Assembly (NCBI GenBank): GCA_022414725.1
Contig: CM039464.1
Coordinates: 7,708,777 to 7,772,776 of the forward strand
Length of the DNA stretch: 64,000 nt
DNA from: Microglena sp. YARC
Lineage: Eukaryota; Chlorophyta; Chlorophyceae; Chlamydomonadales; Chlamydomonadaceae
Direction of reading: 5' to 3'
Of the stretch, positions 21,814 to 64,000 are shown piece by piece. The number at the start of each line of letters is the position of its first letter. The first letter of the stretch is position 1. A model generated the notes under the pieces. The model searched no databases. It was not told the DNA's origin and was given only the letters and a program-made list of their open reading frames with translations. A program made the translations under genes and the position numbers.

Positions 21814-21850
21814 TATTAAAGCAGTGGTAGCAATGCAGAGCCCAATAACC

Positions 21851-28423: not shown

Positions 28424-28522
28424 GAAACACCATTAAGTTTGGTAAGCTTCACAAAGCCGGCAGCAGGCCCTCGCGGAAGTTGCATTATTAAAGCAGTGGT
28501 AGCAATGCAGAGCCCAATAACC

Positions 28523-28917
28523 TATCAGCTTTGTAATCACTCCGGTAGAGTGGACAGTAGATTAAAGCAGCGGAACAGACGCACCAATCTATACACGGAG
28601 ACAAGGATAACGTTACAAGCAAGGACGGACACTAAAGGACACCAGCGGTGGGCGAAGTGGATGCCTGTAACCTGAATAGACCCTAAGCCAGGATCTTGTC
28701 AACCTGACACCGTACAATACTGGACGTGTCAGGGAGAGACCGGTAAGACCGGAGAGACAGGCAGCCAATAGGAAGCTGACACTGAGTCACTAAAGGATGA
28801 CTCAGTTCTACGGGAAGCTGTCACTATGGGAAGCTGTCAGGGCCGATAGTTCTAAGGGAGTACATAAGTAGTCACCAAGTCATAAAACGCGTGAGAGCAC
28901 CGCTATACATGCTGATA
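28523..28917 (-). repeat. Copia LTR 4
   Basis: 395 bp. It ends GCTGATA and then meets non-element sequence (AGTCGGTAGGGG), which fixes the array boundary. Inverted repeat ACTGAGTCA / TGACTCAGT at 28781-28806. Confidence 0.9.
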
Positions 28918-32087: not shown

Positions 32088-33021
32088 CGTAATACTGACG
32101 GTGAGTCCTGACCGCGCATAATTGTCCATACTGGCGCTCAATACGAATGCAGAAGAAGAATTTATCGCTTTAATTTCATCTCGGTCCTGGTCATTTGGAA
32201 TATCTGGTGTGGAGTTGGGTGGGTATTACCAGCTCAGTCAAATGAGCGCTATTACTAAAACACCCCGACGAACGACTCCAGCCGATACCTCAGCCACGCG
32301 CAGCTCGGGGAATCCGTATGTTTTACATATATATAAGATGTACTGCTACGGTAGGCCGTTTGCCGTTGGCCACCCCACCTGGTCCTGGTCCCTGGGATAA
32401 CAGAAAGGCGTAACACCTTTGTACCCCGCAGCCGCCCAAGGCGGTGTTTTTTCTATCTCAGATTTCTGTATTAGTCCAGGTTGAGCAGCTATTATCCGCA
32501 CTACTCAAGCGGCTGAACTTTTCAGGTATTAGGTTGCGTAGCCCATGCTGGCGGACGCGACTAAGCGCCGGAAGCCTGGCGGGGGTGCGGGCAGCCGTCT
32601 TCCTGATATCGTGCCGGTCGATTTCCGGGGGTGCAGATTCTTCCATAATGGCGATCTCGAGAGCAAACAATAGGAACAGCGACGGAGGATCCCGTCGATA
32701 AATGGAAACACTGGTCAAGATAAATCCCCCCAATACCAAAACTGATGAATCCAGTATAACCGAAAGCGAGAGTGTCCGTATGTGTTTGCCATGTGGTTTC
32801 GGAAGACCTTCACGACAAAATCCAGGAGTCCGGAAATTCCGCTGGCCGTTAGCAAAATCCTGTATGTTCATAACATAAATAGGGATATGTAGATAGATAT
32901 ACCACCTACTACCTCACTCACACACACACGACAGCCGCTCACCAAACTCACCGGCTCACCAACCACCCCGCGTGCGCGCCCAACCACTCAGCGCCACCGC
33001 CCCCACACACACACACCCCAG
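32088..33021. other. intergenic, then CA-rich intron-like tract
   Basis: No supported gene. A 137-codon minus-strand ORF (32458-32871) has one hydrophobic stretch but no other sign of coding. From about 32920 the sequence becomes CA/CCAC-rich, like the intron before exon E in the minus-strand arsM copy. Confidence 0.4.
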
Positions 33022-33101
33022 GATGTAATGGACAGGTGGCCACATACAAGGGAACCATTCATGGGCCACAAAAGCGCGTATGACTTGGACGACCACCACA
33101 G

Positions 33102-34700
33102 GTACGAAGAGCATTATTTCATGTTATATTACATTATGTGATGTTATGGTATGTTATGTCATGTTTTGCTTGTTGGGTATATACAACTATAATGAACACC
33201 ACAGGTATGAGGAGCATTCTGTTTTGTTATGTTATGTTACATAATGTTGTTGTATGTTATGCCTTGGACTGTACAACTACACCCACGCATGAATGAATTA
33301 TGACAATTAGAACGACCACCACAGGTATGAGGAAGCATTCTTGTTTTTAGTTATGTCCTGGACTGGAAAGACACACCCATAACTCCATAAGAGAATGAAT
33401 TCTGACTTTGACCGACCACACCCACAGGTATGAGGAGCAATCATGTTTTGTTATGTTATGTTACATAATGTTGTTGAGTAATGTTATGCTTGGACTGTAC
33501 ATAACTACACACTCACGTGCATGAATGAATTATGCCAATTAGAACGCCACTACAGGTATGAGGAGCATCTCGTTTTGTTATGTCCTGGGCTGGAAAGACA
33601 CACCCAATAACTCCATAAGAGAATGAATTCCTGACTTGGACGACCACCACCCAGGGTATGCCAAGGAAGCATCATGTTATGTTACGTTAAGTCCTGGGCT
33701 GGACTGGATTGGCAACATACATCGATACATGTGATGTTTATAGATAGGACACCGTGGTGGATGCGTTATCTGATAGAGAATTTGAGGAGTATTCATGCTA
33801 AATACAAGCAGCATGAACCATCATGTTATTTTTAAAAATTAAATACAAGCAGCATGACCACAGGTATTAAAATTATTATGTATGCTATGCTATGTTATGT
33901 TCTAGACTGGAAACATGCATCGATGCCTGTGTTGTTGATAGATAGGAGGTGGTGGATGTGTTATGCTGGTAGGTTTGAGGAAGGTAAATACCTTAACAAT
34001 AGATTGACCACTACAGGTATGAGTGCATTATTTGATGTTGATGTTCTGCTGTGTCCTGGGCTGACTGTTACCTTGTTAAATCATCCATGCGTGTGATGTT
34101 GGTAGATAGGAGGTGGTGGATGTGTTATGCTGGTAGGTTTGAGGAAGGTATATAACAATAGAATGACCACTACAGGTATGAGGTGCATTAATGTATTGAT
34201 GTTCTGCTGTGTCCTGGGCTGGACTGTTACCATACATCCATGCGTGTGATGTTGGTAGATAGGAGGTGGTGGATGTTTATGCTTGGTAGGTTTGAGGAAG
34301 TATATAACAATAGAATGACCACTACAGGTATGAGGTGCATTATGTGATGTGATGTTCTGCTGTGTCCTGGACTGGACTGTAAACATACATCCATACATGT
34401 GATGTTGGTAGATAGGAGGTGGTGGTGGTGGTGGATTGGTGGGTGGTGGTGAATTGGTGGGTGGGTTTGTGTGGTGGATTTGGTGTGCCGTGGTGGTGGT
34501 GAGTGTTTGTAGAATAGGAGGTGGTGGTGGATAAGGGTGGGTGTGGTGGTGATGTTTATAGTAGGAGGTGGTGGTGGATTGGTGGGCCTGGTGGTGAGTG
34601 ATGTTTATAGACTAGGAGCGTGGTGATTTGATATGCTGTTAGGTTTTGATGAGGGTAGGTTGTAATAAAAGAACGGCCACCACAGGTGTGTGAGGTGCAT
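33102..34700 (+). repeat. E-to-F intron array of exon-E-tail units
   Basis: Repeated units of about 90-165 bp each contain GACCACCACAGGTATGAGG-like sequence (the last bases of exon E plus its donor), then (TGTTA)-rich sequence, TCCTGGACTGGAC and GATAGATAGGAGGTGGTGGATG. About ten copies are seen, from about 33190 to 34690. Most keep a CAG|GT donor shape. Confidence 0.75.
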
Positions 34701-34903
34701 TATGTTTTAATGTTATTGGTGTTTTGTTATGTTCGCTCTGTAATGTTATGTTATATGTTTTGTTAGTGATGCTGATGTGATAGGTTTGATGAGGGTAGAT
34801 AATAAGGCTAGATAGAACTAAACCTTATATAACCCCTAAAGCTATATTGGCTACCCAATCGTGGATCCGGTAGCCAATTGGCTACCCCTCAATGCTTATT
34901 TAT

Positions 34904-35430
34904 GAGTGCAGGTTCGTGAAGGCACACCCATGGCTGGTGTGATAGCCCCTATTGCCTATTTAGCTACCCCTTGCTTGCATGAGTGCAGGTTCGTGAAGGG
35001 CAAGCCCATGCTGGTGTGATAGCCCCTATTGCCTATTTAGCTACCCCTTGCTTGCATGAGTGCAGGTTTGTGAAGGGCAAGCCCATGCTCGTGTGCGGCA
35101 ACTCGGCTTCAATGGTTGGAGAGACTTGGTTGGTGAGTAAGGGAGGGATTGGCATGAGATGTGTTTAATGTGTGCAGCCATATGTATGTGGCAACTGAGC
35201 TTTAATGGTTGGAGACCATTGGACTTGGTTGGTGAGTCAGGGAGGGGTGGCGTGATAGGTGTTTTGTGTGCAGCCATATGTGTGCGGCAACTTTACTTAG
35301 TTGATTGGAGAGAGTTGGTTGGTCAGTAAGGGAGGGGTGGCATGAGATGTGTTTTGTGTGCAGCCATATGTGTGCGGCAACTTTACTTCGATGGTTGGAT
35401 ATACTTGGTTGGTCAATAAGGGAGGGGTGG
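34904..35430 (+). repeat. exon F half-unit amplification
   Basis: The 5' half of exon F (TGCAGGTTCGTGAAGGGCAA type) occurs three times (about 34910, 34985 and the real exon at 35066). The 3' half (GGCAACT...TTGGTTGGTGAGT) occurs again about three more times to 35430, each after GTGTGCAGCCATATG. The same pattern is found in the minus-strand copy. Confidence 0.75.
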
Positions 35431-36489
35431 CATGAGTTGTTTTTGTGTTCAGCCTTATGTACACACTAACTCTTTTGTTTAACACTGCCCGCACAGTGAC
35501 ACTTTTGTTTGACACTATGTTTGACAATGCCCGCACACTGACACTTATATTTGACACTGTGCGCATGCATCTTACCCCCCAACCCAAACCAACCCACCCA
35601 CACCCCCATACTTACCCCCAACCCAGCCCAACCCAACCCAACCGCCCGCCCACCCACAGGCTCCCCACTTTGAGGTGACCGGCAACAGGGACGTCCACTT
35701 CGGTCAATTCGACTGTGGTGGTGGAGCTGTTCCTGTTGGTGTGTCTGCTGCTGCCTCTGCCGGAGGTGGAGCTGGAGACTGTGCCACTGGAGCCTGCTGC
35801 TAGACTCTTATAGCCACTTAGCTACTAGCCGCTAGCTACTGTCTGCCTCAGCTTCGGAGGATGAACTCTGAAGCTCCGGTATAAAGATAGTGCAAAATAA
35901 ATACCTGGGCTGAAGCTGGAAGTCAATAAAAACCGGAGGTGGAGTGGCGCCCACCCTTGAGTTGGTCATAGCCCCCTTGAGTTGGGCATAGCCTTAAACC
36001 TAAATGATGAAACCTTCTCACAAAGGCTGTGTGACCACTTTAAATGTGAAAAATTATATAAAGTTAAGCATAAGCATGCCCGATTGTGAAGTCCCCTGAA
36101 GACCTGTTGCCTCTCTGGTTACCCCTGGACTGTAACAACTGTACGGTAGCCTTAGAATAATAATAATCATAATTGTTACAAGGTTGTATACGCCAGGTAT
36201 GGCGTCTAACCGTCTGCACATTGTATTGAACAACTACCCCCCCGTGCGAGGACCACGAAAACCAGGAATTTCTAGTGCACCTGTCAGAGCGCAGATTCGA
36301 ACCGGGGACTCCTCCGGTTGTGGGGAAATATGAAAACTGAGAATTCGAACATCCAAGTAAGTCACACTGCCGGGGACAATTACCCTACTAAGGACGTCGT
36401 GTTATCAAAACCGGTTCGTAAGCTCACCTTGCTCGAGGTTAGAACCAGTCACGTGTCATACGGTGGACGGCCACCGTGAGGATCGAAAC

Positions 36490-41823: not shown

Positions 41824-43489
41824 GGTCGTCAGGGAGGAGCATCAGGGTGCAGGTAGGGCTGAGAGTATTTTCAGCAATGGTCAGCACTGGTTAGGGCCCA
41901 CCTTAGAGCTTGGTGTGCTTGTGTCGTGGAGTTAGGAATGTCCACCAGTGAGCCCCAGTCCCAGATGGTAAGAAAGGGGTCTTGGTTGGATCCAAAGAGC
42001 TGATCAGCAGGGCTGGTAGAAGAGAAGCTGGTGAGGCTTTGGTCGTAGCTAAGGGGGTTAGAAGTACGATGGTGAGTAATGCCCAGAGCAGCTGCTGCTT
42101 GGTAGAGAAAAGGAGAAAGAGTGTTGGTAGCAGCAGGAGCAGCTCTGTATCTGGTGAAAGAGGGCAGCTAAGTCAGTGTGGTATGTTCCTCCTTGGGTCA
42201 GTTGGTTCCATTTGGTAGGGTGGTGATTTTTGAAGTGGTCATAGTTTTGTTTGAGAGAGGTTAGTCTGTCGTTGGGAATGTGCCCAAGACAGTGACCAGT
42301 GGGGTTATAAAGATATGAAACGTTGGTGTGTGTGTGTGTGGATTGGTCATCCAGAGTGGTGAGGATGCCTGTTTTGTATAATGTAGGCTGAGGGTGGTTG
42401 AATGTCCCAGTCTGGGTGCCTGTCGTGTGTGTCAATTTTCAGAAGTTTTGTGAACAAGGTTGTGGTTGTCAGCATTAAATCCTGGGGAGGTGGCCCATTG
42501 GCCTTGTTGTTGAAGGTTAGTAAGGTGGGTGTCCTTCCTAGGGTTGAGGTGTGTGGTTAATGGGGGGAGTAGTTTAAAAGTGTGGGTTAATTGGTCGTAT
42601 GCTGGTTGTCCCAAAAGTTCAACAAGGTGAGACGCATTGTGAGATTGGGGTTTCCAATGTATGGTGGAGGTAGTGGAGGTAAGAGATGTGCTGTCGTGGA
42701 TGCTGTATCCCATGTGTGTGTAGGAGTTGATATGTTCGTTGTGCATGATGGTTGGGGCCCATTGAACGTGGACAACAGTGGAAGTGACTAGTTTGTCGTC
42801 GTTGTAGGAGCGCTTGCCCCGCCAGCTCGTGATGTGCAGGGCTTTGTATTGGGATCCGTAGGTAAGGTGGAGCAGGGCGCGCCGGTGGTGCAGGTGCGCT
42901 GCTGTCGGGGGATGTCATGGCCTCGCGGATCCTGTCAGGGTGTGAGGTGGGAGTTATTCTATATGCACGGTAAAATTTAGAGGTGGAGGAGTGACGGATC
43001 CAGGATTTGCACATTTGTAGTGGCGTGCTGCCCAGGTGGCATCACTGCTGGGGCAGCCCCATGCTTGGTGCGCGTGACTGCCTTCGGTCTGCGTGGGCCA
43101 CGCCCACCATTGGTTTCCTTCCAGGTCCCCAATGGAATCCGCCTCGTAGTCTGCGTCAGTAACAGTGGCGTGAGGTTGGTAACGCTGGGTGGGTGGGGTG
43201 GAGGGTTCAATAGAAGCAGGAGATTTAACGTTATCGGTTGTGTTCTGCGCAATTGCGTAACCGGGCGCAAGTTGTCGGTGTGAGAGGGGAAGTGGGTCAG
43301 AGTGTTTTGGGGAGGCGACAGTTTGGAGGGAGGAGAGGAGGGCGGTGAGGCGGTTCAGGGACCGTTTGTGGTGTTTAGTAACTTTGTGTAAGGTGATAAG
43401 AGAGAGATCTGTAGTGCTGACAAGGTGAGTTCCCATGGGGGTGACCAGGTCATGGTATGAATAGATGGCCAGGTCATGGAATGGAGTCA

Positions 43490-44226
43490 TTACATTACAT
43501 TACATTACATTACATGTTAAAGTCTACTTGACACCGCGAGGGTGTATGAGACTCTGTGCTTTAAACAAAAAGAAAAAGCACCCACAAAGCAAAAACCCCA
43601 TTACATCAGGGGTGTGTCGAGGACAAACAACCAAACTCCCAACCACCGTTTTGGTGGCGTAGGTATTAAACCCTTAGAAGCCGGATCCAGATCTCAACCA
43701 CTTACAGTGGCGGAGGTAAGAAGCTAACAAATGAGAAGTCACAAGAAGAAGAAAAAAAGGGATGATAAATTACGGTGCCACTAAGCAGTCCAGGGCTTCC
43801 TGTCTTGCTCTTCTACAAGTAGAAGATAGTCGGCTAGGTTGCTCCAAAAAGACTTAGTGCCATTTCCATTCATAAAGGTTCTGAATGTGGAATCGCAGAA
43901 TTCCACATTCCATACGGTTAAGTTGGTATCCTCATGGACATGCCTATAAATATCTGTAAACAGCTTCTGGTAGCGGAGGCGAATATCATTATAAAAAGGG
44001 CACTCAAACATATGCATTTCATCCTCAGGTTTTTGGAACCCACACATTTGACAGTGTCTCATTGAGCGAGGGATGTGTGCTCTATCCACCACCCTCATTC
44101 TTTCTGTGTTCAGCCAATGGGAACCCATTCTAAACTGTGCTATAGAACGAATCTGATCCTGCTTATGTAAGGCGGATGTAAAGGGAATCAAGCCATTCTC
44201 ATCATTGCTGTTGGCTGCGAACCATT
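43490..44226 (-). mobile_element. LINE B copy 1, 5'-truncated, nested in LINE A
   Basis: It starts with a (CATTA)n tail at 43490-43515 and matches the 3' end of LINE B copy 2 (48912-49660) until GCGAACCATT at 44226. The ORF 44191-43781 ends with CQMCGFQKPEDEMHMFECP, a CX2CX9HX4C motif typical of the LINE C-terminus. A possible short target duplication (AGTCAT) is seen at both edges. Confidence 0.85.
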
Positions 44227-48911: not shown

Positions 48912-50289
48912 TACATTACATTACATTACATTACATTACATGTTAAAGTCTACTTGACACCGCGAGGGTGTATGAGACTCTGTGCTTTAAACAAAAAGAA
49001 AAAGCACCCACAAAGCAAAAACCCCATTACATCAGGGGTGTGTCGAGGACACAAACAAACCAAACTCCCAAACCACCGTTTTGGTGGCGTAGGTATTAAA
49101 CCCCTTAGAAGCCGGACCCAGATCTCAACCACTTACAGTGGCGGAGGTAAGAAGCTAACAAATGAGAAGTCACAAGAAGAAGAAAAAAAGGGATGATAAA
49201 TTACGGTGCCACTAAGCAGTCCCAGGGCTTCCTGTCTTGCTCTTCTACAAGTAGAAAGATAGTCGGCTAGGTTGCTCCAAAAAAGACTTAGTGCCATTTC
49301 CATTCATAAAGGTTCTGAATGTGGAATCGCAGAATTCCACATTCCATACGGTTAAGTTGTATCCTCATGGACATGCCTATAAATATCTGTAAACAGCTTC
49401 TGGTAGCGGAGGCGAATATCATTATAAAAAGGGCACTCAAACATATGCATTTCATCCTCAGGTTTTTGGAACCCACACATTTGACAGTGTCTCATTGAGC
49501 GAGGGATGTGTGCTCTATCCACCACCCTCATTCTTTCTGTGTTCAGCCAATGGGAACCCATTCTAAACTGTGCTATAGAACGAAATCTGATCCTGCTTAT
49601 GTAAGGCGGATGTAAAGGGAATCAAGCCATTCTCATCATTGCTGTTGGCTGCGAACCATTTTTGGTATCGGAGGCGTTTAAAGCCAACCCTTCTCTCATC
49701 AGGGATGTCTCTAACTGCATTGGTGTCACTTGGGTACTTAAACCTCCATGACTCAAAAACTTCAGAACATAATACCTTCGACATCGACAGCCTCCAAAAT
49801 GTTGATGTTTTTACTGGATCCTAGCTTGTGGAGAGCACAACGCAAGTCATGAACCCAGCCAGTGTTGGAGTCAAAAGATTCTCAAGAGCCATTCTAATGA
49901 GATCCTCAGGTTCTTTATGTATGGTCTTGTTCCAGAAGCGCAAAGCTTGTTTAAAGCCAGCAAAAACACAACGGGGTTTCTACCCAGCTCTTCCATGATA
50001 ATATTAGATGTAGTAGATTGGCAAACACCCAACATTTGTTTAAGTATATCCTCTATGCCATTTCTCACAAGCATGGTCATTTGAGATAAGTGTGTTGTTC
50101 AGAATAGAAGGAGCCCACACCTCACAGCCAAAATTCAGGATAGGTTGTACAAGAGAATCAAACAGGTGGGTTGAGAATATCAAATACTGTATATTCTCCA
50201 TAGTATGGCATCGCCTACGGAGCATGTGGTGTGCCTTTTGGCCTTAGTGAGCATCCTAGAAAAAAGCAGCTTTTGCACGATTGCTTGAG

Positions 50290-51215
50290 TCACCATCCAC
50301 AAAGAGGGATCCCAAGTAGATAAAAGATAAACTTTGTAGAAAGTTTGTGCTCCATCATAGACAAATTTGTAATCAGGATCCATGCGGGCCTCATCACAGA
50401 GAATTGCTTGTTGAAAACGACAATCTCAGTTTTCTTTATATTCACAGCCATCTTAGTAGCCTCACAGAAATCTCTCAGACAGTCAAGCATCGCTTGCATA
50501 TCTGCCGGGGATTCTGCCATTATAGCTAAGGTCATCAGCATAAAGTAACAGTTGCAGAATCTTTCCCCTAAGCTCAGCCCTACATTTGGGAGCTTGGATT
50601 GGAGGAACGATTCAATTCTATCAATGAACAGACCGAATAGGAGTGGGGATAGGGGGTCTCCTTGTTTAACTCCTACAAGGGATGGAAAGGAGGATCCAAT
50701 GTCCCCATGTAGGCGAACTTGGAAAACAACATGAATATACATGGACTTCAGAATACTGAGATAGGGGTCCTTGACTCCTAGCCTTGCTAAGCAATCCCAT
50801 AGCAAGTCTCTGTTGACCCAATCATAAGCCTTCTTGAAATCAACAAAAGCCACAAAGAGTGGTTTTTTCTTTTCTCTATTTTTATCTACAATATGGTTAA
50901 GAATGAATGATGCATCTGCAGTACCCCTACCACTTCTAATCCATATTGGCCAGCGGCTCTGAGGTTGAATTCTTCTGACCAATCATCTAGTCTACGTAGC
51001 ATGCAAAGGGAGAAGATCTTTCCTATGGAGTTGCTCACCGCAAGACCTCGATAGTTGTCCTTGTCATACACACTGCCTTTGGATTTGGGTACGGGTACCA
51101 AGGCAGCTGCAGCCCATTGGCTAGGGTAAGAAGTCTTCCAGATGAGATTAAACAGGTTAGTCATAGCTTTGTACAAATCGGGAGTTGGCTTCATGGGAAG
51201 CAAAATCTGTACCAT
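50290..51215 (-). pseudogene. LINE B reverse transcriptase
   Basis: Overlapping ORFs 51215-50886 (LVPVPKSKGSVYDKDNYRGL) and 50982-50290. The second has FVDFKKAYDWVNRDLL, then GVKQGDPLSPLLFGLFIDRI, then ESPADMQAMLDCLRDFCE. The catalytic YADD block needs one base change near 50530 to be in frame. This enzyme would prime cDNA synthesis at the target nick. Confidence 0.75.
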
Positions 51216-51890: not shown

Positions 51891-52697
51891 TTACCACAGC
51901 AGGTGTACTAATAGTACCTTGAGAAGGCCTAAGGCAGCATCTGGTATGTGGAAGTGTGATAGGCATGTGGTCAAACTTTCCACCCCGGGCCTGAGAGGGC
52001 AGTCATGCTTGGGAGCCACACTAAACTTGACACCTGGGGTGTTGAGAAGACTAGGGGCGGCTAGCGCATAATCAATGACAGATTTCTTGTCCATGCCATC
52101 TGCAAAGAAGGTATGTGCACCTTGCATATCACCTTCTGTTCAACCGTTAAGGATGATAAGACCAGTTACTACACATAGCTGGAGTAGGGCCCCCCCCAAT
52201 CGATTGGGGGGAGCTGTGTCCATGCTACACCTCGGTTGAATGGTTTGGTTGGGGGCTGTACTATTGGTTTGGGATACTGGTTCATCTCCTAACTCGGTAT
52301 CATCATTGTCCACACCAAGACCAACCCGAGCGTTGAAGTCACCCATCACCATAACGTTGCCTTTTTCCTGGAAGTTCCCAATGATTTTACCTAGAGTGAG
52401 GAAGTGGTCCTCTATACTAATGCAGTCGTCACCATGTTTGTAGTATGAGCTGTTAGCATGTGGGATATAGCACCCACCAATGTGTGTTCCATGTATGCGA
52501 ATCCATGCCATGCCTAATTCAGGTGCCTCATGGACTAAAGTAGCATTTAGGCAAGTGCGGACATAGATAGCGACCCCCCCATCCTTGCTCAACTTGGGGC
52601 GAGGGGCACAAGATAGTGTATAGGTGTGGCCCTGGATGCTCGCCCATTTACGAGGGGTGTTCAGGAGAATGGGTTGGTGTTTGAGAGAGTCTATCAA
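51891..52697 (-). pseudogene. LINE B APE-type endonuclease
   Basis: ORF 52697-52140 contains KDGGVAIYVRTCLNATLVHE and NVMVMGDFNARVGLG (the GDFNA block). ORF 52127-51891 continues with KKSVIDYALAAPSLL and PKHDCPL (the late Asp-x-x-Leu/Pro block with HDCPL in place of SDHxP). It would nick target DNA. The first catalytic Asn/Glu region is not present. Confidence 0.7.
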
Positions 52698-53386
52698 GTA
52701 CCACTCACCCTGGAAGTGTTTGATTGTGGCTGCATGGCCAAATACCGTGCTGAAGTTGAGTATGCATGCCTGGTGGGGTGGAGGCGCTCTAATATCTGTT
52801 CCTTTGTGCTGCCCGGCATGATGCCCTTGGGGTATGTCTCTCGGTGTCCATGGTTAGGAAGGGGAAGCTGAGCAGGGGTGTAAGGGGTTATACAACGGGG
52901 TGAGGATGCCCACAATGGGTTGGTGTAGATGCAGGAAGGAGCTAAGCAGGGGACTGAGAAGTTGCCCTGGCCGTGTCCAGTTGTGTAGTGCTCGTCCCTA
53001 ATTCTACGGCGGCTGGTGTGGAGGTGATCAGCGTATGCGAGATAGCTAGGGGTTCTATGTACGGACCTCCTAGGTAGGTATTTATGGCGTGGGACTGGCA
53101 GAAATTATATGCTTGGGGTTCCCAGTATGGGAGGTGGGGTTGGGAGGGGAGAAGAGGGAGGGAGAGGGGGTTGTCTCCTCCTCTACACGTGGGGTGGGGG
53201 GGTGGGCAGTTGGATCTGGATGTGTTTAGGCTGGTGGGGATGGCTGGGTGGGGGAGGCTGTTGGTGGCCTGGGGACCCCCAAGTTGGCTATTCATTGAGT
53301 GGGCCTGGCAGAGGTCGAATACTTGAGGTTCCCAGTATGAGGGGTGGGGCGGGGGTAGGGGGGTATGGAGTGGGGGCGAGGTCTGT

Positions 53387-54304
53387 ATGTATTCCATTCA
53401 ATTAAACTTAATTTAATCAACGTGATTTGAATGCATTTAATTGCTTTAATTTTTATGCATTCGTATTGTACCATTTTTGTCTCTTCTTCTGAACGAAAAC
53501 TAACATTTCCTATAAATAAGACTTGATCCAATATCTTCATACACTCTTGGATAAACAGAGGAAGATTCGTTCGGCCTTACATTTCTGAATTGCACATCAG
53601 ATAATGAAGAGGAATCATTTTACTCTCAGATTGGGAAATCGGGTTATGCTCATTTTCCCTCGAATTCAGTAAGGCTTTGTCTGTGTGTCAATACATTCAA
53701 AACCACATGGTATTCTTCTTGAACGGTTCCAGAATCAAATACCGGTAAGTGACAACAGGGTTGTGCAGGATGCAACATGGGGAGGGTCCGTTGCGTCACA
53801 GACGTAACATGGGAAAGTCTGTTGCGTCACAGACGTAACATGGGGAGGGTCCGTTGCGTCACAGACGTAACATGGGAGAGTCCGTTGCGTCACAGACACA
53901 ACATGGGGAGGGTCCGTTGCGTCACAGACGTAACATGGGAGAGTCCGTTGCGTCACAGACGTAACATGAGAGAGTCCGTTGCGACAGACGTAACATGGGA
54001 GAGTCCGTTGCGTCACAGACGCAACATGGTGAGGGTCCGTTGCGTCACAGACGTAACACCGTTGCGTCCCAGATGCAGGTTCAGGATGTTGGTTGAGTCG
54101 CAGACGCAGGTTCAAGATGTTGGTTGCGTCTCACCCATCAGTTGATTCGGTGTCACCGACTAGGTGACACTACGTGACACTAGGTGACACCTACTAGGTG
54201 ACACTAGATCCTTCCATGGAACTAAGGTAGTTTTCATCTATCAGTTTCCTCAGTCGGGTAGTGGGAAGAAGTTATAAATCGATACACACCGGTATTACGC
54301 ACTA
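53387..54304 (+). repeat. right copy of ~0.95-kb direct repeat flanking LINE A
   Basis: Same as 38678-39662 apart from a few base changes and a minisatellite of nine 33-bp units instead of eleven (about 53771-54060). It ends CGCACTA and then continues into unrelated CCTTGCTTGTA repeats. Confidence 0.9.
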
Positions 54305-54524: not shown

Positions 54525-54994
54525 CAGGGTTGTGTAGTACGGACAGTACGCACCTAAAATCCGTACCGTACTCGTTTTCCTGAAAATTGAGTACGCGTAC
54601 GGTCCGTACTCAAGAAAGTAATGATAACGCCTGGTGGGGCGTGGTGTTAAGGGAGCCCGTCGTACGCGGGTGGGGAGCGGTCTCCTACCTCAACTGAACA
54701 AGCTACCATCGCGGTTGACGACGACGTACTCAAGAAACATACTTGCATAGTCAGTTCCATGATACTAAGTGGCATAACTTTTGATGCCTTCGAATTTTGA
54801 CATGATCAGTAGACCACTGTAAAGCCAGGAATGCCCTCTACATGTTTCCATTGGAACCGAGGTCAAATTAGGAGGAACACAAAGTTTATTAGGTCAGGGA
54901 ATGTTATGATACTAAAAATCGTACCGTACTCAAACCGCACTCACTTCTAAAACCCGTACCGTATCCGTACCCGTATCCGTACTACACAACTCTG
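54525..54994. mobile_element. 470-bp hAT-type MITE with 8-bp TSD
   Basis: Terminal inverted repeats of 19 bp (CAGGGTTGTGTAGTACGGA on the left, one mismatch on the right). Perfect 8-bp target duplication TAGCTAAG at 54517-54524 and 54995-55002. The interior has CCGTACCGTACTC-type repeats near both ends and no ORF. CAGGG ends with an 8-bp duplication are typical of hAT elements. It sits in the repeated 3' flank of the minus-strand arsM copy. Confidence 0.9.
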
Positions 54995-55002
54995 TAGCTA
55001 AG

Positions 55003-55202
55003 TGGCTACAAGAGTCTAGTAGCGTCAGGCCCCCGATGCACAGTCTCCAGCTCCACCTCCACCTCCACCAGAGGCAGCTAGTAGCTAGCAGCTAGTAGCT
55101 AAGTGGCGACAAGAGTCTAGCAGCAGGCTCCAGTGGCACAGTCTCCAGCTCCACCAGAGGCAGCTAATAGCTAGCGGCTAGTAGCTAAGTGGCTAAAAGA
55201 GT
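55003..55202 (-). repeat. tandem copies of the arsM terminal-exon end
   Basis: Two extra copies of the exon end plus 3' flank lie downstream of the real stop: about 55128-55200 and 55010-55127. Each repeats CTAGCAGCAGGCTCC, CAGTCTCCAGCTCCACC and TAGCTAGTAGCTAAG (plus strand). The MITE at 54525 is inserted in a further partial copy. Confidence 0.75.
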
Positions 55203-55346
55203 CTAGCAGCAGGCTCCAGAGGCACAGTCACCAGCTCCTGCTCCACCAGAGGCAGCAGCAGACACACCAATAGGAACAGCTCCACCACTACAGTCGAATT
55301 GACCAAAGTGGACGTCCCTGTTGCCGGTCACCTCAAAGTGGGGAGC
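55203..55346 (-). CDS. arsM: arsM terminal exon
   Basis: 144 bp, 47 residues plus stop, after acceptor CCCACCCACAG. Starts APHFEVTG and ends GDCASGACC. The Cys-Cys end recalls the metal-binding tails of algal and bacterial ArsM. It differs from the plus-strand copy at a few positions only. Confidence 0.85.
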   Translation of the reverse strand, partial: APHFEVTGNRDVHFGQFDCSGGAVPIGVSAAASGGAGAGDCASGACC

Positions 55347-58300
55347 CTGTGGGTGGGCGGTTGGGTTGGGGGGGTTGAGTTGGGAAGGGTTGGGTTTGGG
55401 GGGAAGTATGGGGTGGTGGTTTGGTTTGGTTTGGTTTGGTTTGGGTTGGTAAGATGTGTGCGCACAGTGTCAAACAAAAGTGTCAGTGTGCGGGAATTGT
55501 CAGACAAAAAAGTGTCAGTGTGCGGGCAGTGTCAAACAAAAGTGTCAGTGTGCGGGAAGTGTCAAACAAAAAAGTGTCAGTGTGCGGGCAGTCTCAAAGA
55601 AAAGTGACGAACAAAAGTTTTAGTGTGCGGACAGTGCCAAACAAAAAAGTGTCAGTGTGTACATATGGCGTCACACAAAAAACATCTCACTCCACCCCTC
55701 TCTTACTCACCAAGCAAGTCTCTCAAACCAACCATTGAAGCCAAATTGCCATACACACAGCTTTACACAAAACACATCTCACGCCACCCAGTTTTTTTTT
55801 TCAAATCTGAAATGGGTTTCTTCTAGCTTTATCGTTTCAGGGCTCCTCCAGGGGCAGCGTTTTGTAGCTTTTAAGGGCAATTTTGGGCCAGGTGTCACAA
55901 AAATAGGGCAAAACATTTTTTTTCTTTTTTCTTTTTTTATAGCGATAATTTCGCCGAATCGGGGTCAAAACTAGCGATCGCTATATATAGCGGGGGAAAA
56001 ATCTGACTGATCTCTGAGTGTGTGCGTATGGCTTAACACAAAACATATCTCACGCCACCCCTCCTTTACTGACCAACCAAGTCTCTCCAACCATTGAAGC
56101 CGAGTTGCCGCAAACAAATAGCTGCACACAAAACACATCTCACGCCACCCCTCCCTTACCCACCAACCAAGTCTCTCCAACCATTGAAGCCCAGTTGCCA
56201 CATACATATGGCTGCACACAAAACACATCTCACGCCACCCCTCTCTTACCCACCAACCAAGTCTCTCCAACCATTGAAGCCCAGTTGCAGCAAATAAATA
56301 GCTGCACACAAAACACATCTCATGCCATTCCCTCCCTTACTCATCAACCAACTCTCTCCAGTCAATGAAGTTAAGTTGCCGCACACATATGGCTGCACAC
56401 AAAAACACATCTCACGCCAATCCTTCCCTTCCTCACCAACCAAGTTTCTTCAACCGACCATTTAATTTCAGTTGCCACATACATATGGCTGCACACAAAA
56501 CACATCTAACGCCACCCCTCCCTTACTCACCAACCAAGTCTCTCCAACCAACCATTGAAGCCCAGTTGCCACATACATATGGCTGCACACAAAACACATC
56601 TCACGCCACCCCTCCCTTACTCACCAACCAAGTCTCTCCAACCAACCATTGAATCCCAGTTGCCACATACATATGGCTGCACACAAAAGACATCTCACGC
56701 CACCCCTCCCTTACTCACCAACCAAGTCTCTTCGACCATTGAAGCCGTGTTGCCGCACACCAGCATGGGCTTGCCCTTCACGAACCTGCACTCATGCAAG
56801 CAAGGGGTAGCTAAATAGGCAATAGGGGCTATCACACCAGCATGGGTGTGCCCTTCAAGAACCTGCACTCATGCAAGCAAGGGGTAGCTAAATAGGCAAT
56901 AGGGGCTATCACACCAGCATGAGCTTGCCCTTCACGAACCTGCACTCATGCAAGCAAGAGGTAGCTAAATAGGCCATATGGGTAGCTAAATAGGCTACAT
57001 AGCTAGCTAAATAGGGTATGTGGGTAGCTAAATAGGCTACATGGGTAGAGGGGTAGCTGAATAGGAAGAGGGCGCGACAAGGATGTTCCAGGACATAACA
57101 AAACATCACATACTATCTGCCCTCCTGAAACTTCTCAGCATAAAAACATTCACCACCTGCTATCGATCAACATCACACGTATGGATGCATGTTTTCAGTC
57201 CAATCCAGGACATAACACAACATAACAAAACGCCACATAACATAACATAACATAACATAACATAACACAACATAATGCACCTCATACATGTGGTGGCCAT
57301 TATAGTTGTATGTAACCTCATCAAACCAATCAGCATAAGACATCCACCACCTCCTATCTATAAACATCACATGTATGGATGTATGTTTGCAGTCATGTCC
57401 GGGATATAACACAACATAATACACCTCATATGCAATAGCATAGCATAACATAAATTACATAATGCACCTCATACCTGTGGTGGCCATTCTAGTTGTATTT
57501 AACCTCCTCAAACCTACCAGCATAACACATCCACCTCTTATCGATCAACCTCACATGTATGGATGCATGTTTACAGTCCAGGGCAAAACATAAAATAACA
57601 TAACATAATGCCACATAACATTAAATAATGCTCCTCATACCTGTGGTGGTCGTCCTAATTGTATATACCCTCCAGGGTATTTCCGTTGACCAAATTGGCC
57701 AGGGCTTTAACGCACTTGAAAACAAAAAACTGGCTGTGTAGTGCAAAAAGCGCAAAAAATGCTTGCTGCGCCCACAGGGGGTTGCAAAAAACTGCGCGAA
57801 ACGCGCAGTGAGGCTCAAAAAGGCAGCGCGCCAGTGTGCGCTTGGAAGTACCCTGATACCCTCCTCATACCTATAAGCTTAAAATATCCACCACCTACTA
57901 TCGATCAACCTCACATGTACGGATGTATGTTTACAGTCCAGGACAAAACATAACATAACATAATGTCACATAACATAAAATAATGCTCCTCTACCTGCGG
58001 TGGACATTCTAGTTGTATCTACCCTCTTAAAACCTATCAGCATAACACATCCACCACCTCCTATCGATCAACCTCACATGTACGGATGTATGTTTACAGT
58101 CCAGGACAAAACATAACATAACATAACATCACATAATGTAACATAACATGAAATAATGCTCTTCGTACCTGTGGTGGTCGTCCAAGTCATACACGTTTTT
58201 GTGGCCTTGGATGGTTCCCTTGTATGTGGCCATCTGACCATAATCCTGTGGAGGTGGGGTGGGGTGTGTGTGTGTTGGGGGGATGGGGTGGCGGTGGGTG

Positions 58301-58461
58301 CGTGTGTGTGTGGGGTGTGGGGTGTGGGGTGGGTGGGTGGGGCAGGTGGGTGGTGGTCGGTGGCAAGTGGTGCGTGGTGGTTGTCCAAGGCATACGCACT
58401 TGTGAGGCTTTGTATGGTTCCCTTGTATGTGGCCATCTGACCATAATCGTGTGGGTGGTGT

Positions 58462-58495
<34 letters not shown>

Positions 58496-60749
58496 GGGGG
58501 GGGGGGGGAGTGGTGCGTGATGGGTGGTGGGTGGTGGGCAGGTGGGTGGTGAGTTGGTGTATGTGGCCACCTGTCCATAATCCTGTGTGTGTGTGTTGCG
58601 TGTGGTGAGAGGGGGGCGAGTGGTGCTTGATGGGTGGAGGGCAGGTGTTTGATGTGTGGTGAGAGGTGTGTGGTGTGTGGTGAGGTATGTGAGTATGTAC
58701 ATACATGCATACATACATACATACATACATACATACATACATACACACATACATAACTCACACATATCCTCATTGCGTCCAGGCAACTTCAATAGCCTGT
58801 GGGCCATGCTGTAGAACTTGGGGTCCCCACACAGCTCCTTCTCAGAAGTATTTATCCCACTTTATACACATTCAACCCACTTTATACACATTTAACCGAC
58901 TGTATACTCATGTATGTGTATGTGTATGTGTACATGCATGCCCCTCTCACCCCACACACATCTCTCACCTCACTCAGCTCACACACCTCACTTCACACAC
59001 CTCACACACCTGTATACTCATGTATGTGTATTTGTATGTGTCCATGCATGCCTCTCTCACCTCACACACACACAATACATGCATGCCTCTCTCACCTCAC
59101 ACAGATCCTCAATGCGTCCAGGCACCTTGAACAGTAACATACATATATACCTCACATATATCCCTGATGCGTCCAGGCCCCTTGAAGACTGGAACATACA
59201 TACATACAAACAGTCCTGGACTGTAACATATACTGCCAAGAAGTATATAACATATACACATACTCCTGCCAATGTAACATATACATACTGCTGCCAATGT
59301 AACATATACATACTGCTGCCAATGTAACATATATACATACTCCTGCCAATGTAACATATACATACTGCTGCCAATGTAACATATATACATACTCCTGCCA
59401 ATGTAACATATACATACTCCTGCCAATGTAACATATATACATACTGCTGCCAATGTAACATATACACATACTCCTGCCAATGTAACATATACACATACAT
59501 GACATACACATACACAGACTGTAACATATACACATACATACCTCCCACATATCCTCAATGTGTCCAGGCACTTTCAACAGTCTATAAGTGATGCTGTATA
59601 ACTGGGCCTACCCTCACAGCTCCTCTCAAAAGCACTTAACCCACTCCGTACACATTTAACCCTCTATAAACACGGGTATATGCATGTATACACATGCTTC
59701 TCTCACCTCACACAGATCTTCAATGCATTCAGGCACCTTAAACAGTAACATACATACATACACTCACACTCCCTGCTGCACACATACATATATACACGCA
59801 AACCTCACACAGATCCTCAATGCGTTCAGGCACCTTGAACAGTAACATACATACATACACTCACACTCCCTGCTGCACACATACATATATACATGCAAAC
59901 CTCACACAGATCCTCAATGCGTTCAGGCACCTTGAACAGTAACATACATACATACACTCACACTCCCTGCTACACACATACATATATACATGCAAACCTC
60001 ACACAGATCCGCAATGCGTTCAGGCACCTTGAACAGTAACATACATACATACACTCACACTCCCTGCTGCACACATACATATATACATGCAAACCTCACA
60101 CAGATCCGCAATGCGTTCAGGCACCTTGAACAGTAACATACATACATACACTCACACTCCCTGCTGCACACATACATATATACATGCAAACCTCACACAG
60201 ATCCGCAATGCGTTCAGGCACCTTGAAGAGTAACATACATACATACACTCTCACTCCCTGCTGCACACACACATATACACATACATACCTCACACAGATC
60301 ATCGATGCGTCCAGGCACCTTGAACAGTCTGTAAGTGATGCTGTAGAACTTGGCCTCTCCACACAGCTCTGCCAGATCTGGGTCCAAAACGGCAATGGGG
60401 GTAATGACCAAGCTGCGGGGGTCGGTGAAGCCCACCTGTTGATGGACAGCACATGTGTGTGTGTTGTGTGTGTGTGTGTCTGTTTGTGTTTGTGTGTGTA
60501 GCAGGCTCGGCCAGCTCTGGGTCCTCAACGGCGATGGGGGTGGTGGTCAAGCTGCGGGGGTCAGAGAAGCCCACCTGTTGATGGACAACACATGTGGGTG
60601 TGTCAATGTGTGTGTGTGTGTCTGTTTGTGTGTGTGTCTGTTTGTGTTTGTGTGTGTAGCAGGCTCTGCCAGCTCTGGGTCCTCGACAGCAATGGGGGTA
60701 GTGGTCAAGCTGCGGGGGTCGGTGAAGATTGTAAACTGTTGATGGAGAA

Positions 60750-60825
<76 letters not shown>

Positions 60826-61559
60826 CTATGTGTACGTGTGTGTGTTTGTGGGGGTGGGATGGGGTGGGTCAAGGATACACACCTGTCTGCAGATTCGGAT
60901 GAAGTCATTAATGTTCTAGGCACCACCCAGGATGATGGAGTGAGTTTGAAGCGCAACCAACCAACCAACCAACCAACCAACTAACTAACAATTTTATATA
61001 TATATGCACACCTGTCTGCAGGTTTGGATGAAGTCATTAATGTACTAGGCACCACCCAGAATGATGGAGTGAGTTTGAAGCGCAACCAACCAACCATCCA
61101 ACCAACCAACCAACCAACCAACCAACTAACTTACTAACAATTTTATATATATGTGCACACCTGTCTGCAGATTCGGGTGAAGTCATTAATGTTCTAGGCA
61201 CCACCCAGGATGATGGAGTGAGTTTGAAGTGCAACCAACCAACCAACTAACTAACTAACAGTTTATAGATATACACACCTGTCTGCATATGCGGATGAAG
61301 ACGTTGACGAACAAGGCGCCACCCAAGCCCTTGCCCCAACCATGACAGGGAATGAATACATGAACAACAACAGGTGGGAGGAGGAGGTGTGTGTGTGTGT
61401 GTGTGGGGGGGGGGGGGGGTGAGGTGGGTGGGGTCAAGGATGCACACCTGTCTGCATATGCGGATGAAGACGTTGACGAACAAGGCGCCACCCAAGCCCT
61501 TGCCCCAACCATGACAGGGAATGAATACATGAACAACAACAGGTGGGAGGAGGAGGTGT

Positions 61560-61590
<31 letters not shown>

Positions 61591-61733
61591 GGGGGTGAGG
61601 TGGGGGGGGGTCAAGGATACACACCTGTCTGCATATGCGGATGAAGACGTTGACGAAGAAGGCGCCACCCAAGCCCTTGCCCAACCATGACAGGGAATGA
61701 ATACATGAACAACAACAGGTGGGAGGAGGAGGT

Positions 61734-61764
<31 letters not shown>

Positions 61765-62220
61765 GGGGGGGTGAGTGGGGGGGGGGTCAAGGATACACAC
61801 CTGTCTGCATATGCGGATGAAGACGTTGACGAACAAGGCGCCACCCAAGCCCTTGCCCCAACCATGACAGGGAATGAATACATGAACAACAACAGGTGGG
61901 AGGAGGAGGTGTGTGTGTGTGGGGGGGGGGGAGGTGGGGGGGGGTCAAGGATACACACCTGTCTGCATATGCGGATGAAGACGTTGACGACAAGGCGCCA
62001 CCCAAGCCCTTGCCCCAACCATGACAGGGAATGAATACATGAACAACAACAGGTGGGAGGAGGTGTGTGTGTGTGGGGGGGGGGGGAGGTGGGGGGGGGT
62101 CAAGGATACACACCTGTCTGCATATGCGGATGAAGACGTTGACGGACAAGGCGCCACCCAAGCCCTTGCCCCAACCATGACAGGGAATGAATACATGAAC
62201 AACAACAGGTGGGAGGAGGT

Positions 62221-62266
<46 letters not shown>

Positions 62267-64000
62267 CAAGGATACACACCTGTCTGCATATGCGGATGAA
62301 GACGTTGACGAACAAGGCGCCACCCAAGCCCTTGCCCAACCATGACAGGGAATGAATACATGAACAACAACAGGTGGAGGAGGAGGTGTGTGTGTGTGTG
62401 GGGGGGGTGAGGTGGGGGGGGGGGTCAAGGATACACACCTGTCTGCATATGCGGATGAAGACGTTGACGAACAAGGCGCCACCCAAGCCCTTGCCCCAAC
62501 CATGACAGGGAATGAATACATGAACAACAACAGGTGGGAGGAGGAGGTGTGTGTGTGTGGGGGGGGGGGGAGGTGGGGGGGGGGGGTCAAGGATACACAC
62601 CTGTCTGCATATGCGGATGAAGACGTTGACGAACAAGGCGCCACCCAAGCCCTTGCCCCAACCATGACAGGGAATGAATACATGAACAACAACAGGTGGG
62701 AGGAGGAGGTGTGTGTGTGTGTGGGGGGGGGGGGGGGAGGGGGGGGGTCAAGGATACACACCTGTCTGCATATGCGGATGAAGACGTTGACGAACAAGGC
62801 GCCACCCAAGCCCTTGCCCCAACCATGACAGGTAATGAATACATGAACAACAACAGGTGGGAGGAGGAGGTGTGTGTGTGTGTGGGGGGGGGGGGGGGGA
62901 TGAGGTGGGGGGGGTCAAGGATACACACCTGTCTGCATATGCGGATGAAGACGTTGACGAACAAGGCGCCACCCAAGCCCTTGCCCCAACCATGACAGGG
63001 AATGAATACATGAACAACAACAGGTGGGAGGAGGAGGTGTGTGTGTGTAGGGGGGGGGGGGGGAGGTGGGGGGGGGTCAAGGATACACACCTGTCTGCAT
63101 ATGCGGATGAAGTCATTGATGTACAAGGCACCACCCAAGCCCTCGCCCCAACCATGACAGGGAATGAATAACTTAACAACAACTGATGGGAGGAGGAGGA
63201 GGTGTGTGTGGGTGGGATGGGATGGGGTGGGGTGGGGGTGTGTGGGTGGGAGTCAAGGCTACACACCTGTCGGCAGATGCGGATGAAATCGTTGATGTAC
63301 AAGGCACCACCCAAGCACTACAAACCTGTCTGCATATGCGGATGATGTCGTTGATGTACAAGGCACCACCCAAGCCCTAATGTTGTAGCCTATTTTGCTG
63401 CCCCTGTACTGTGACATACACACCTTTCTGCATATGCGGATGAAGTCGTTAATGTACAAGGCACCACCCAAGCACTTTCTGGTGAACTGTGATATACACA
63501 CCTGTCTGCAGATGCGGATGAAGTCATTGATGTACAAGGCACCACTCAAGGAGTACACACCTGTGCTGTGTCACACACACCCCTGTACTGTGACATACAC
63601 ACGCACACCTGTCTGCATATGCGGATGAAGTCATTGATGTACAAGGCACGACCCAAGCCCTCGCCCCAACCATGACAGGGAATGAATAACTTAACAACAA
63701 CTGATGGGAGGAGGAGGTGTGTGTGGGATGGGATGGGATGGGATGGGATGGGATGGGGTGGGGTGGGTGGGGTGGGGTGGGGGTTGGGAGTGGGTGTCAA
63801 GGATACACACCTTTCTGCATATGCGGATGAAGTCGTTGATGTACAAGGCACCATCCAAGCACTACACCCCTGTACTGTGACATACACACACATACACACC
63901 TTTCTGCATATGCGGATGAAGTCGTTGATGTACAAGGCACCACCCAAGCACTACACCCCTGTACTGTGGCATACACACACATACACACCTTTCTGCATAT
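55203..64000 (-). CDS. arsM: arsenite methyltransferase, 3' part of a split gene
   Basis: The exons join in frame: A (51 bp, several candidates 63267-63950), B 60435-60289, E 58245-58169, F 56785-56719, terminal 55346-55203 (TAG at 55203-55205). The joined protein reads CLGGALYINDFIRICR(Q/K), VGFTDPRSLVITPIAVLDPD, KFYSITYRLFKVPGRIDDLC, EDYGQMATYKGT, YDLDDHHRF, GKPMLVCGNTAS, APHFEVTGNRDVHFGQF and a Gly/Ala/Ser-rich end with terminal ACC. This order is that of the C-terminal half of ArsM/AS3MT proteins, which use S-adenosylmethionine to methylate As(III) in the cytosol. The N-terminal Rossmann fold lies beyond the window. CLGGAL holds the family's arsenic-binding Cys (Cys206 in human AS3MT, from memory). 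Introns are huge arrays of exon-derived repeats. Whether the gene is expressed depends on skipping many decoy exons; the three A copies nearest B carry TAG. Confidence 0.75.
55347..56718 (-). repeat. F-to-terminal intron: 37-bp repeats and exon F 3'-half array
   Basis: At about 55460-55670 a 35-40-bp unit (AAGTGTCAGTGTGCGGGCAG) repeats five or six times. At about 56020-56718 the 3' half of exon F with its GTGAGTAAGG donor repeats about seven times at a 90-95-bp period, each preceded by GTGTGCAGC(C)ATATGTATGTGGC. A foreign-looking T-rich segment interrupts at about 55790-56010. Confidence 0.75.
56719..56785 (-). CDS. arsM: arsM exon F
   Basis: 67 bp with acceptor TGAGTGCAG and donor GTGAGT. 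It reads FVKGKPMLVCGNTASMVEET then WL, completing the Arg codon begun in exon E and ending in phase 0. Two further copies of its 5' half lie upstream at about 56862 and 56940. Confidence 0.85.
56786..58168 (-). repeat. E-to-F intron array, with (CATAA)n and MITE
   Basis: Units carrying the end of exon E (CTGTGGTGG on the plus strand) recur near 58000, 57640, 57478 and 57290, with (CATAA)n runs and ACATCCACCACCTCCTATCG. TAGCTAAATAGGC repeats lie at 56805-57065. The intron is also interrupted by the MITE at 57673. The same unit type is found in the plus-strand copy. Confidence 0.75.
57673..57855. mobile_element. hAT-type MITE family 1, copy 3, with 8-bp TSD
   Basis: 183 bp from CAGGGTATTTCC to GGAAGTACCCTG. 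Perfect 8-bp duplication ATACCCTC at 57665-57672 and 57856-57863. In reverse orientation relative to copies at 31876 and 37222. Inserted in the E-to-F intron. Confidence 0.9.
58169..58245 (-). CDS. arsM: arsM exon E
   Basis: 77 bp with acceptor CTCCACAG and donor GTACGA. It reads DYGQMATYKGTIQGHKNVYD then LDDHHR (the last codon completed by F). Decoy copies lie upstream at about 58457-58385 (no acceptor AG) and about 58590-58555 (5' part only). Confidence 0.85.
58455..58750. repeat. (TG)n, poly-G and (CATA)n microsatellites
   Basis: (GT)n at 58463-58492, then a G run to 58508. Then TGGTGGGTGG-type sequence, and (CATA)n at about 58697-58745. All are within the B-to-E intron. Confidence 0.85.
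58755..58860 (-). repeat. diverged copy of exon B 3' half
   Basis: The minus strand reads ELCGDPKFYSMAHRLLKLPG and RNEDMCE, then TTATGT where exon B has the donor GTATGT. The donor is lost. A second diverged copy lies at about 59640-59540, ending GTGGGAG then GTATGT. Confidence 0.7.
59255..59500. repeat. ~34-bp tandem array in B-to-E intron
   Basis: About seven to nine units of CCAATGTAACATATACATAC with CTGCTG or CTCCTG. Confidence 0.8.
59706..60288 (-). repeat. ~97-bp array of exon B 3' ends with donors
   Basis: Six units start at about 59706, 59803, 59901, 59998, 60096 and 60190, directly next to the real exon B end at 60289. Each reads FKVPERIADLCE-like on the minus strand and then a GTTTGCATG-type donor, followed by intron sequence with CAGCAGGGAGTGTGAG. 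Confidence 0.85.
60289..60435 (-). CDS. arsM: arsM exon B
   Basis: 147 bp, phase 0 to 0, acceptor CATCAACAG, donor GTATGT. Starts VGFTDPRSLVITPIAVLDPD and ends FKVPGRIDDLCE. Partial 5' copies lie upstream at about 60573-60500 (VGFSDPRSLTTTPIAVEDPE) and 60737-60660. Confidence 0.9.
60889..61245 (-). repeat. three decayed exon A copies with stop codons
   Basis: Copies at about 60889, 61012 and 61158. Each has GGTGGTGCCTAG, an in-frame stop after LGGA, and lacks an acceptor AG at the exon start. Each is followed by (CCAA)n and (TATA)n sequence. Confidence 0.75.
61279..63140 (-). repeat. exon A array, Gly-type (GLGGALFVNVFIRICRQ)
   Basis: Eleven near-identical units of about 155-180 bp with exon ends near 61279, 61447, 61625, 61799, 61957, 62113, 62279, 62439, 62599, 62760 and 62928, plus a GLGGALYINDF unit near 63090. 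Each has a 51-bp open segment (e.g. 61329-61279), acceptor AAG, donor GTGTGT, and an intron of CA and poly-C on the minus strand. The first codon is GGC (Gly) where Cys-type copies have TGC. The 51-bp length keeps frame whatever number is spliced in. Confidence 0.85.
63267..63950 (-). CDS. arsM: arsM exon A candidates, Cys-type
   Basis: Four 51-bp exons begin TGC directly after an AG acceptor: 63317-63267, 63474-63424, 63861-63811 and 63950-63900. They read CLGGALYINDFIRICRK or ...CRQ (slight variants, for example one with DGAL) and have GTGTGT or GTTTGT donors. Gly-type or damaged copies lie between them (near 63325-63375, 63499-63549 and 63607-63657). Another partial copy is cut by the window end at 63988. 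These are the copies most likely to serve as the real exon. Confidence 0.7.

Follow-up and report, generated by a model that had tools for sequence, protein, structure and literature searches.

The ArsM gene and its exon-edge copies

This work concerns a 64-kb stretch of the genome of the green alga Microglena sp. YARC (hereafter the window; contig C3:7708777-7772776, in an assembly of 568 Mb and 2,390 contigs), whose minus strand carries the 3' part of an arsenite methyltransferase (ArsM) gene, comprising exons B, C, D and E, with arrays of partial exon copies lying beside these exons. All four exons are bordered by AG and GT, except that E closes with the stop codon, and spliced together they give an uninterrupted reading frame of 144 residues. 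Together with an exon A part, which was taken from an array copy, they align without gaps to the arsenite methyltransferase of PDB 5evj (E 3.3e-64, 157 residues, query 4-160), so that the C-terminal region can be placed against a solved ArsM, and the gene identity proposed in a preliminary description of this DNA is sustained. The NCBIfam ArsM model matches only below the model cut-off, and a Pfam scan gave no match at E 0.01.

No exon A complete with its acceptor was identified in the 64-kb window. A 7,500-bp N gap starts at the base directly after the window's last base, and the complete exon A and the exons preceding it are presumably located there, as is the complete methyltransferase domain with its S-adenosylmethionine-binding motif, which was found neither in the window nor in the fetched flank; an LGSGSGRDCY exon is present on contig C1858. 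Exon 1 of a EukProt gene model, P0001, is encoded ~9 kb past the window end with 21/21 residues identical, and the 23 residues of exon D (first codon split) and the last 42 of exon E are unchanged in this model, which skips the first five residues of exon E and differs from exon B by one residue. Amino acids ~22-84 of P0001 were not found in the window or its fetched flank. P0001 thus corresponds to this locus or nearly so. It was not used as expression evidence because amino acids 22-84 are missing, because exon B differs, and because P0151, a model named in the same style, matches HSP70C of this genome at only 86%. Upstream of ArsM exon 1, a minus-strand frame read by eye (L010 9655-9854) starts with MESPSYAPSSVRYSYEGTQPG.

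Copies of the ArsM exon borders were sought by local alignment, using for each border a probe made of 60 nt of intron joined to at most 60 nt of exon, and a score threshold of at least 44; within the window, a 29-kb control stretch gave best scores of 21-29, and shuffled probes reached up to 33. Counting junction-spanning matches only and excluding the real edge, exons B-E are flanked by 30 partial copies, which are present at seven of the eight edges (none at E 5'; Table 1). Excluded as not spanning a junction were 13 low-complexity places matched by the C 5' probe, two matches for B 5', and one each for D 3' and E 3'. The 3' end of exon A is represented by 22 units between 60.9 and 63.95 kb, with one more unit cut by the window end. 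These arrays were also recovered by Tandem Repeats Finder (TRF), which showed that the units, tens of bp or longer, are arranged head to tail within an intron, as in intronic minisatellites.

Exons B-E are themselves single, and every ArsM copy is partial, lacking at least one of the two splice sites; the longest is a copy of exon C without the donor. The copies are 75-100% identical to the real exon, each array adjoins its own exon, and the order of the exons is kept. In three ArsM introns of 1,372-2,043 bp, 25-53% of bases lie in edge copies, by a measure that leaves the outer 80 nt on either side of each intron uncounted and therefore does not include the two D 5' copies. Several claims of the preliminary description therefore stand: the repeat units contain exon sequence, as self-alignment of the window confirms, the copies lie in order beside their own exons, and the copy numbers given (more than 20, about nine, three, about eight, three and three) roughly agree with the alignment counts. 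Amplification of exons as wholes is not supported, since B-E are single and the copies are fragments.

Table 1. Exons of the ArsM gene, their edge-copy arrays and the inverted paralog (window coordinates)
Feature	Position	Strand	Description	Basis
Exon B	60289..60435	-	Real, 147 nt; acceptor CAACAG|, donor GAG|GTATGT	Gapless vs PDB 5evj
Exon C	58169..58245	-	Real, 77 nt	In-frame path, PDB 5evj alignment
Exon D	56719..56785	-	Real, 67 nt	In-frame path, PDB 5evj alignment
Terminal exon E	55203..55346	-	Real, 144 nt; contains stop codon	In-frame path, PDB 5evj alignment
Exon A 3'-edge array	60878..64000	-	22 units, three main types	TRF, self-alignment
Exon A array type 1	60878-61259	-	~149 bp units with TAG stops	
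Exon A array type 2	61271-63316	-	~162 bp units with poly-G	
Exon A array type 3	63259-64000	-	59-98 bp units	
Exon B 5'-edge units	60454..60815	-	Acceptor + 70 nt exon; 2 copies upstream of B	TRF, alignment
Exon B 3'-edge units	58699..60227	-	36-81 nt exon (36-40 and 81) + donor region + intron; 10 copies downstream of B	
Exon C 5'-edge units	58411..58636	-	2 copies upstream of C; one matches 75/77 nt, without donor	
Exon C 3'-edge units	57235..58003	-	9-15 nt exon + donor region + intron; 4 copies downstream of C	
Exon D 5'-edge units	56849..56982	-	77 bp period; 30 nt exon; 2 copies upstream of D	
Exon D 3'-edge units	55660..56644	-	~90 bp period; 39-46 nt exon; 8 copies downstream of D	
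Exon E 3'-end units	54994..55142	-	Include stop-codon region; 54 nt exon; 2 copies downstream of E	
Inverted partial ArsM paralog	32975..35849	+	Exons C, D, E	Self-alignment of window

Copy direction and recurrence in other genes

All copies of ArsM 5' edges lie upstream of the real exon (6/6) and all copies of 3' edges lie downstream of it (24/24). Across ArsM and four further loci, with 20 curated exons in total, the predicted direction was found in 24/24 five-prime and 44/44 three-prime copies. This direction is what tandem duplication must give when one breakpoint falls within the exon and the other within the neighbouring intron; the rule is a geometric signature of plain tandem duplication and not evidence of a special machine. 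It follows that the ArsM arrays sit in introns or past the stop codon, and that the intact exon always holds the outermost splice site. Both kinds of copy occur together in 4 of 16 introns, and in 4/4 of these the tails of the upstream exon precede the heads of the downstream exon. At the score that defines a copy, none of the 20 curated exons contains an internal self-duplication, and in 19 of them the self-match does not exceed all 50 shuffles. The repeated short local duplication that had been proposed from the sequence thus agrees with the copy direction that tandem duplication must give.

The same edge-copy architecture was found in unrelated genes on the large contigs C1, C3 and C5, namely in HSP70, in chaperonin genes, one of them at C5:39.355 Mb, and in another gene, a neighbour of ArsM, so that ArsM is not the one special gene that it had been taken for. 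In the HSP70C gene, which lies at C3:11.606 Mb, one exon is preceded by five copies of its own 5' edge, most of them with a TTGCAG acceptor, and the coding path that skips all copies is gapless against the Chlamydomonas protein, with 88% identity over the 402 residues examined. Identity of HSP70C to its relatives in Chlamydomonas reinhardtii, Volvox carteri, Haematococcus lacustris and Chlamydomonas sp. UWO 241 is 86-89%; together with the spliced genes, this marks the DNA as that of a green alga, probably a member of or close to the Chlamydomonadales. HSP70C is expected to be essential, and its copies must therefore normally be spliced out. In addition, a gene ~24.5 kb past the window end (L012 4516-7479) has an intron containing upstream-exon tails (four by pattern, five by alignment) followed by downstream-exon heads (five by pattern, seven by alignment), where the real exons are our own reading of the sequence and the copy order comes from the combined pattern and alignment positions; this gene runs into an N gap after the arrays.

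A genome profile search gave 86 rows for Cpn60/TCP1 and 76 for HSP70, among which 19 pairs of neighbouring matches overlap by at least 18 profile positions. Seven of these pairs have one edge in common and differ at the opposite one, all seven in the predicted direction, three are partial copies of equal extent and nine are other overlaps. Over ArsM and the four added loci, copies were found at 12/19 five-prime and 9/20 three-prime edges, a rate that is biased upward because three of the four loci were fetched after rows of the hidden Markov model (HMM) search had shown edge-sharing copies. The local copies in these five loci number 73, of which four hold exon interior only (outside the exon) and one is near-whole. 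In four genes fetched without any prior sign (21 exons, with HMM match ends as exon borders), 10/42 edges have copies, in two of the four genes, and the predicted direction holds for 11/11 five-prime and 18/19 three-prime copies. The duplication process is thus probably a property of this alga's genome and not of ArsM.

The idea that duplication is anchored at exons is not supported. Arrays with a period of at least 25 bp, as detected by TRF, which sees only close copies, cover 63% of intron bases in ArsM, 30% in HSP70, and 96 and 42% in two chaperonin genes over the spans examined (~50% overall), against 11/38 exon edges in the same genes, or 12/40 when L047 is included, of which a single exon was examined and adds 1/2 edges. 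The exon part of the unit also has no common length. Both points make it unlikely that a machinery directs duplication to exon-intron borders (R-loop breaks, a paused polymerase) and that the edges are true hot spots, a scenario with which the presence of copies at all but one of the ArsM edges would agree, as would the report, in the part of PMC3887541 drawn on here, that tandem repeats are commoner near intron-exon junctions in two green algae.

The inverted paralog, contig C1858 and the rest of the window

Self-alignment of the window revealed an inverted partial paralog of ArsM (paralog 2; Table 1), which has copies at its C 3', D 5' and D 3' edges, with exon breakpoints similar to those of the main copy; no copies were found at its C 5' or E 3' edges. 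Because the arrays are partly common to the paralog, it seems that some founding duplications predate the gene duplication and that others postdate it or were lost. Exon D and its counterpart in the paralog were compared with the copies in the array. At the three sites that distinguish exon D from its paralog and that the 3' units reach, the seven aligned 3'-edge copies (the comparison reached seven of eight) carry the paralog state in 21/21 cells, which indicates that the exon D 3' array has not been homogenised with the exon. At the other two sites, two 5'-edge copies (four cells) and one 3'-edge copy (one cell) are like their own exon. Exon C of the paralog shows a 1-nt length difference, caused by a frame shift or a sequence error, and the upstream side of the paralog ends at a 1-kb N gap. 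A direct duplication of ~0.95 kb (38678-39662 and 53387-54304, 91% identical, with 31-63 bp repeats) lies downstream of the two ArsM genes, 2.9 and 0.9 kb from their 3' ends, and is direct although the genes are inverted.

An unplaced contig of 27,994 bp, C1858 (L043/L044), is error-rich and carries ArsM exons 1 to B with arrays, in a different version; at least one other ArsM exon, exon 2, has an array there. Among the matches listed, none linked C1858 to the 162-bp poly-G intron parts of the window or to the C3 flank beyond exon 1. The contig represents either the 5' half of paralog 2 or another version of the ArsM locus. Its many errors and deviating version, together with the N gaps (1,000 and 7,500 bp) close to both ArsM copies, would agree with error-prone long reads having inflated or invented the arrays. 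Such an artefact is nevertheless highly improbable, as like arrays are shared by this separate contig, the inverted paralog and genes located on other large contigs, and as the spread of identities between copies and real exon is not expected from misjoined copies of one sequence. The exact copy numbers remain uncertain.

Elsewhere in the window, a Copia-type chain extends over 9749-28839, with landmark repeats at 9749, 15466, 22136 and 28808 spaced ~5.7, 6.67 and 6.67 kb apart, as if tandem elements shared long terminal repeats. In one unit of this chain, of which two frames were scanned, RVT_2, Pol_BBD and gag_pre-integrase domains scored above cut-off and an integrase core below it. A direct repeat of ~740 bp (43488-44226 and 48914-49660) is 98.5% identical, with an RNase H frame to its left (41035-41841) and, to its right, a frame for RVT_1 (50290-50982) followed by one that is endonuclease-like and scores below cut-off (52140-52853); the region around it is retroelement-rich, and a related piece lies on C1858 (13924-14226). 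Scans of the window gave no Rfam family at gathering score and no tRNA.

Probable intron growth, splicing and comparison with known systems

The most probable explanation, which we hold with considerable confidence, is that mostly neutral local tandem duplication enlarges introns and is hidden by splicing. Many independent short tandem duplications would have enlarged the ArsM introns in this way. A duplication with breakpoints in an exon and the neighbouring intron would leave the real exon in place and add a partial copy, consisting of an exon end plus donor (downstream) or of an acceptor plus exon start (upstream), and slippage or unequal exchange would then multiply the unit into a minisatellite. 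The GT/CA-rich composition of the introns may promote such duplications. Because a half-exon carries a donor or an acceptor and not both, the array would be spliceable as intron and the reading frame would survive; duplications internal to an exon would break the protein, and none was seen in the exons examined. Splicing probably uses the outermost sites, that is, the first donor and the last acceptor, and the arrays are probably mostly neutral. AG is kept in 21/24 copies and GT in 28/44 (two of the 44 belonging to the stop-codon edge), a retention that in our judgement is about that of decay without selection. Under exon definition, the fragments may be invisible to splicing because they have no partner site across the exon.

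Several observations weigh against this explanation. Exon A and the 5' half of the ArsM gene presumably fall in the N gap, and the gene model P0001 leaves out segments that a normal ArsM has. The copies of exon B are mixed, resembling their own exon in 47 cells, the compared copy in 21 and neither in three, as are those of exon E (six, four and none, respectively). One chaperonin exon (220-288) has a self-match score of 24, above all 50 shuffles and below the copy threshold of 32. In the unselected genes, 1 of 19 three-prime matches lies upstream (29 nt from inside the exon, next to a 5'-edge copy), and with uncurated borders one 5' match of L048 falls downstream, since its HMM match starts within an upstream copy; with the curated border it lies upstream. 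Finally, two of the four unselected genes (L049 and L051) show no copies, and the architecture is therefore patchy.

The preliminary description had offered many splice forms or a dead gene as the outcome. Neither of these is supported, given that exons B-E are in frame and gapless against PDB 5evj and that the HSP70C path is gapless as well; some alternative splicing may occur. That the ArsM gene is dead and its arrays represent pseudogene decay would accord with the frame-breaking length difference in exon C of paralog 2 and with the presumed position of the 5' half of the gene in a gap, and is very improbable in view of exons B-E of the main copy, which are open and conserved, and of the like arrays in HSP70C, a gene that is open and gapless in the exons examined. 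Quite unlikely, too, is the use of the copies, such that array donors and acceptors give many ArsM isoforms or tune expression in the manner of a polyubiquitin splice-site array. The GT and AG dinucleotides retained at many junctions would allow cryptic use; the fragments lack a partner site, 3 of the 22 exon A units carry stops, and the single-copy path is gapless against known proteins in both ArsM and HSP70C.

A further proposal, put forward tentatively and with some doubt, is that introns extend inward from the splice sites as exon ends are captured in tandem, which would mean exon-definition splicing. An intron would then consist largely of partial copies of its flanking exons, upstream tails first and downstream heads last, and splicing would face up to eleven similar donors, of which it must take the first, and several similar acceptors, of which it must take the last. 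Such growth is hard to reconcile with nearest-site pairing across short introns and would therefore imply exon definition. For Volvox and Chlamydomonas, the portion of PMC4378016 consulted suggests intron definition, on the basis of short intron length.

The elementary step of this architecture, local tandem duplication, is ordinary; its extent and its demand on the spliceosome are unusual. Among the papers listed in the open-licence literature, none was found by title and abstract start to describe introns made of partial flanking-exon copies, which is not proof of absence. The closest parallel is in Chlamydomonas and Volvox, where intronic tandem repeats are biased to intron-exon junctions (PMC3887541); as in the present alga, repeats there are densest in introns and near junctions and show GT/AC motifs, whereas the excerpted text of that paper describes no units with exon ends and splice sites and no introns made largely of flanking-exon copies. 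Boundary minisatellites in human paralogs likewise change gene structure and may create introns (PMC2812944, from the part available); in those primate-specific paralogs both exons and introns change, whereas in this alga, at numerous edges in several genes, the examined exons are fixed and the introns lengthen. Intron gain from AGGT-containing segments also involves local tandem duplication neutralised by splicing, but, as far as the cited extracts go (PMC3443670, PMC4974935), it makes a new intron from an exon, and in this alga existing introns lengthen. The dual-specific splice-site array of polyubiquitin UBC similarly has a splice site in every unit; according to the extract of PMC10809524, its units are whole coding monomers, a variable number of which is spliced, unlike the exon fragments with one kind of site found here.

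Three known processes were considered and rejected. Intron gain by tandem genomic duplication does not fit the gapless alignments of ArsM A-E and HSP70C (402 aa) or the lack of self-duplication in the 20 exons. Tandem duplication of whole exons does not fit either, with 1/73 copies in the five loci classed as whole, and that one covering 75/77 nt without a donor. As for a mobile introner, which would place one unit at scattered, unrelated positions, a genome protein search gave 35 matches, all in the ArsM locus, its flank, the paralog or C1858, in a search in which only the best candidates were scored and which covered the protein-coding parts of the units, their intron parts not being searched genome-wide.

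In genomes of this kind, gene prediction and short-read mapping can go wrong. The arrays may preserve old exon states beside the exon. Multi-copy arrays in conserved genes constitute natural splice-site competition experiments, in which the sites differ mainly in their partner across the exon, and RNA reads over array introns would show whether a green alga uses exon or intron definition. Collectively, the arrays of Microglena sp. YARC suggest a simple, mostly neutral route of intron growth.

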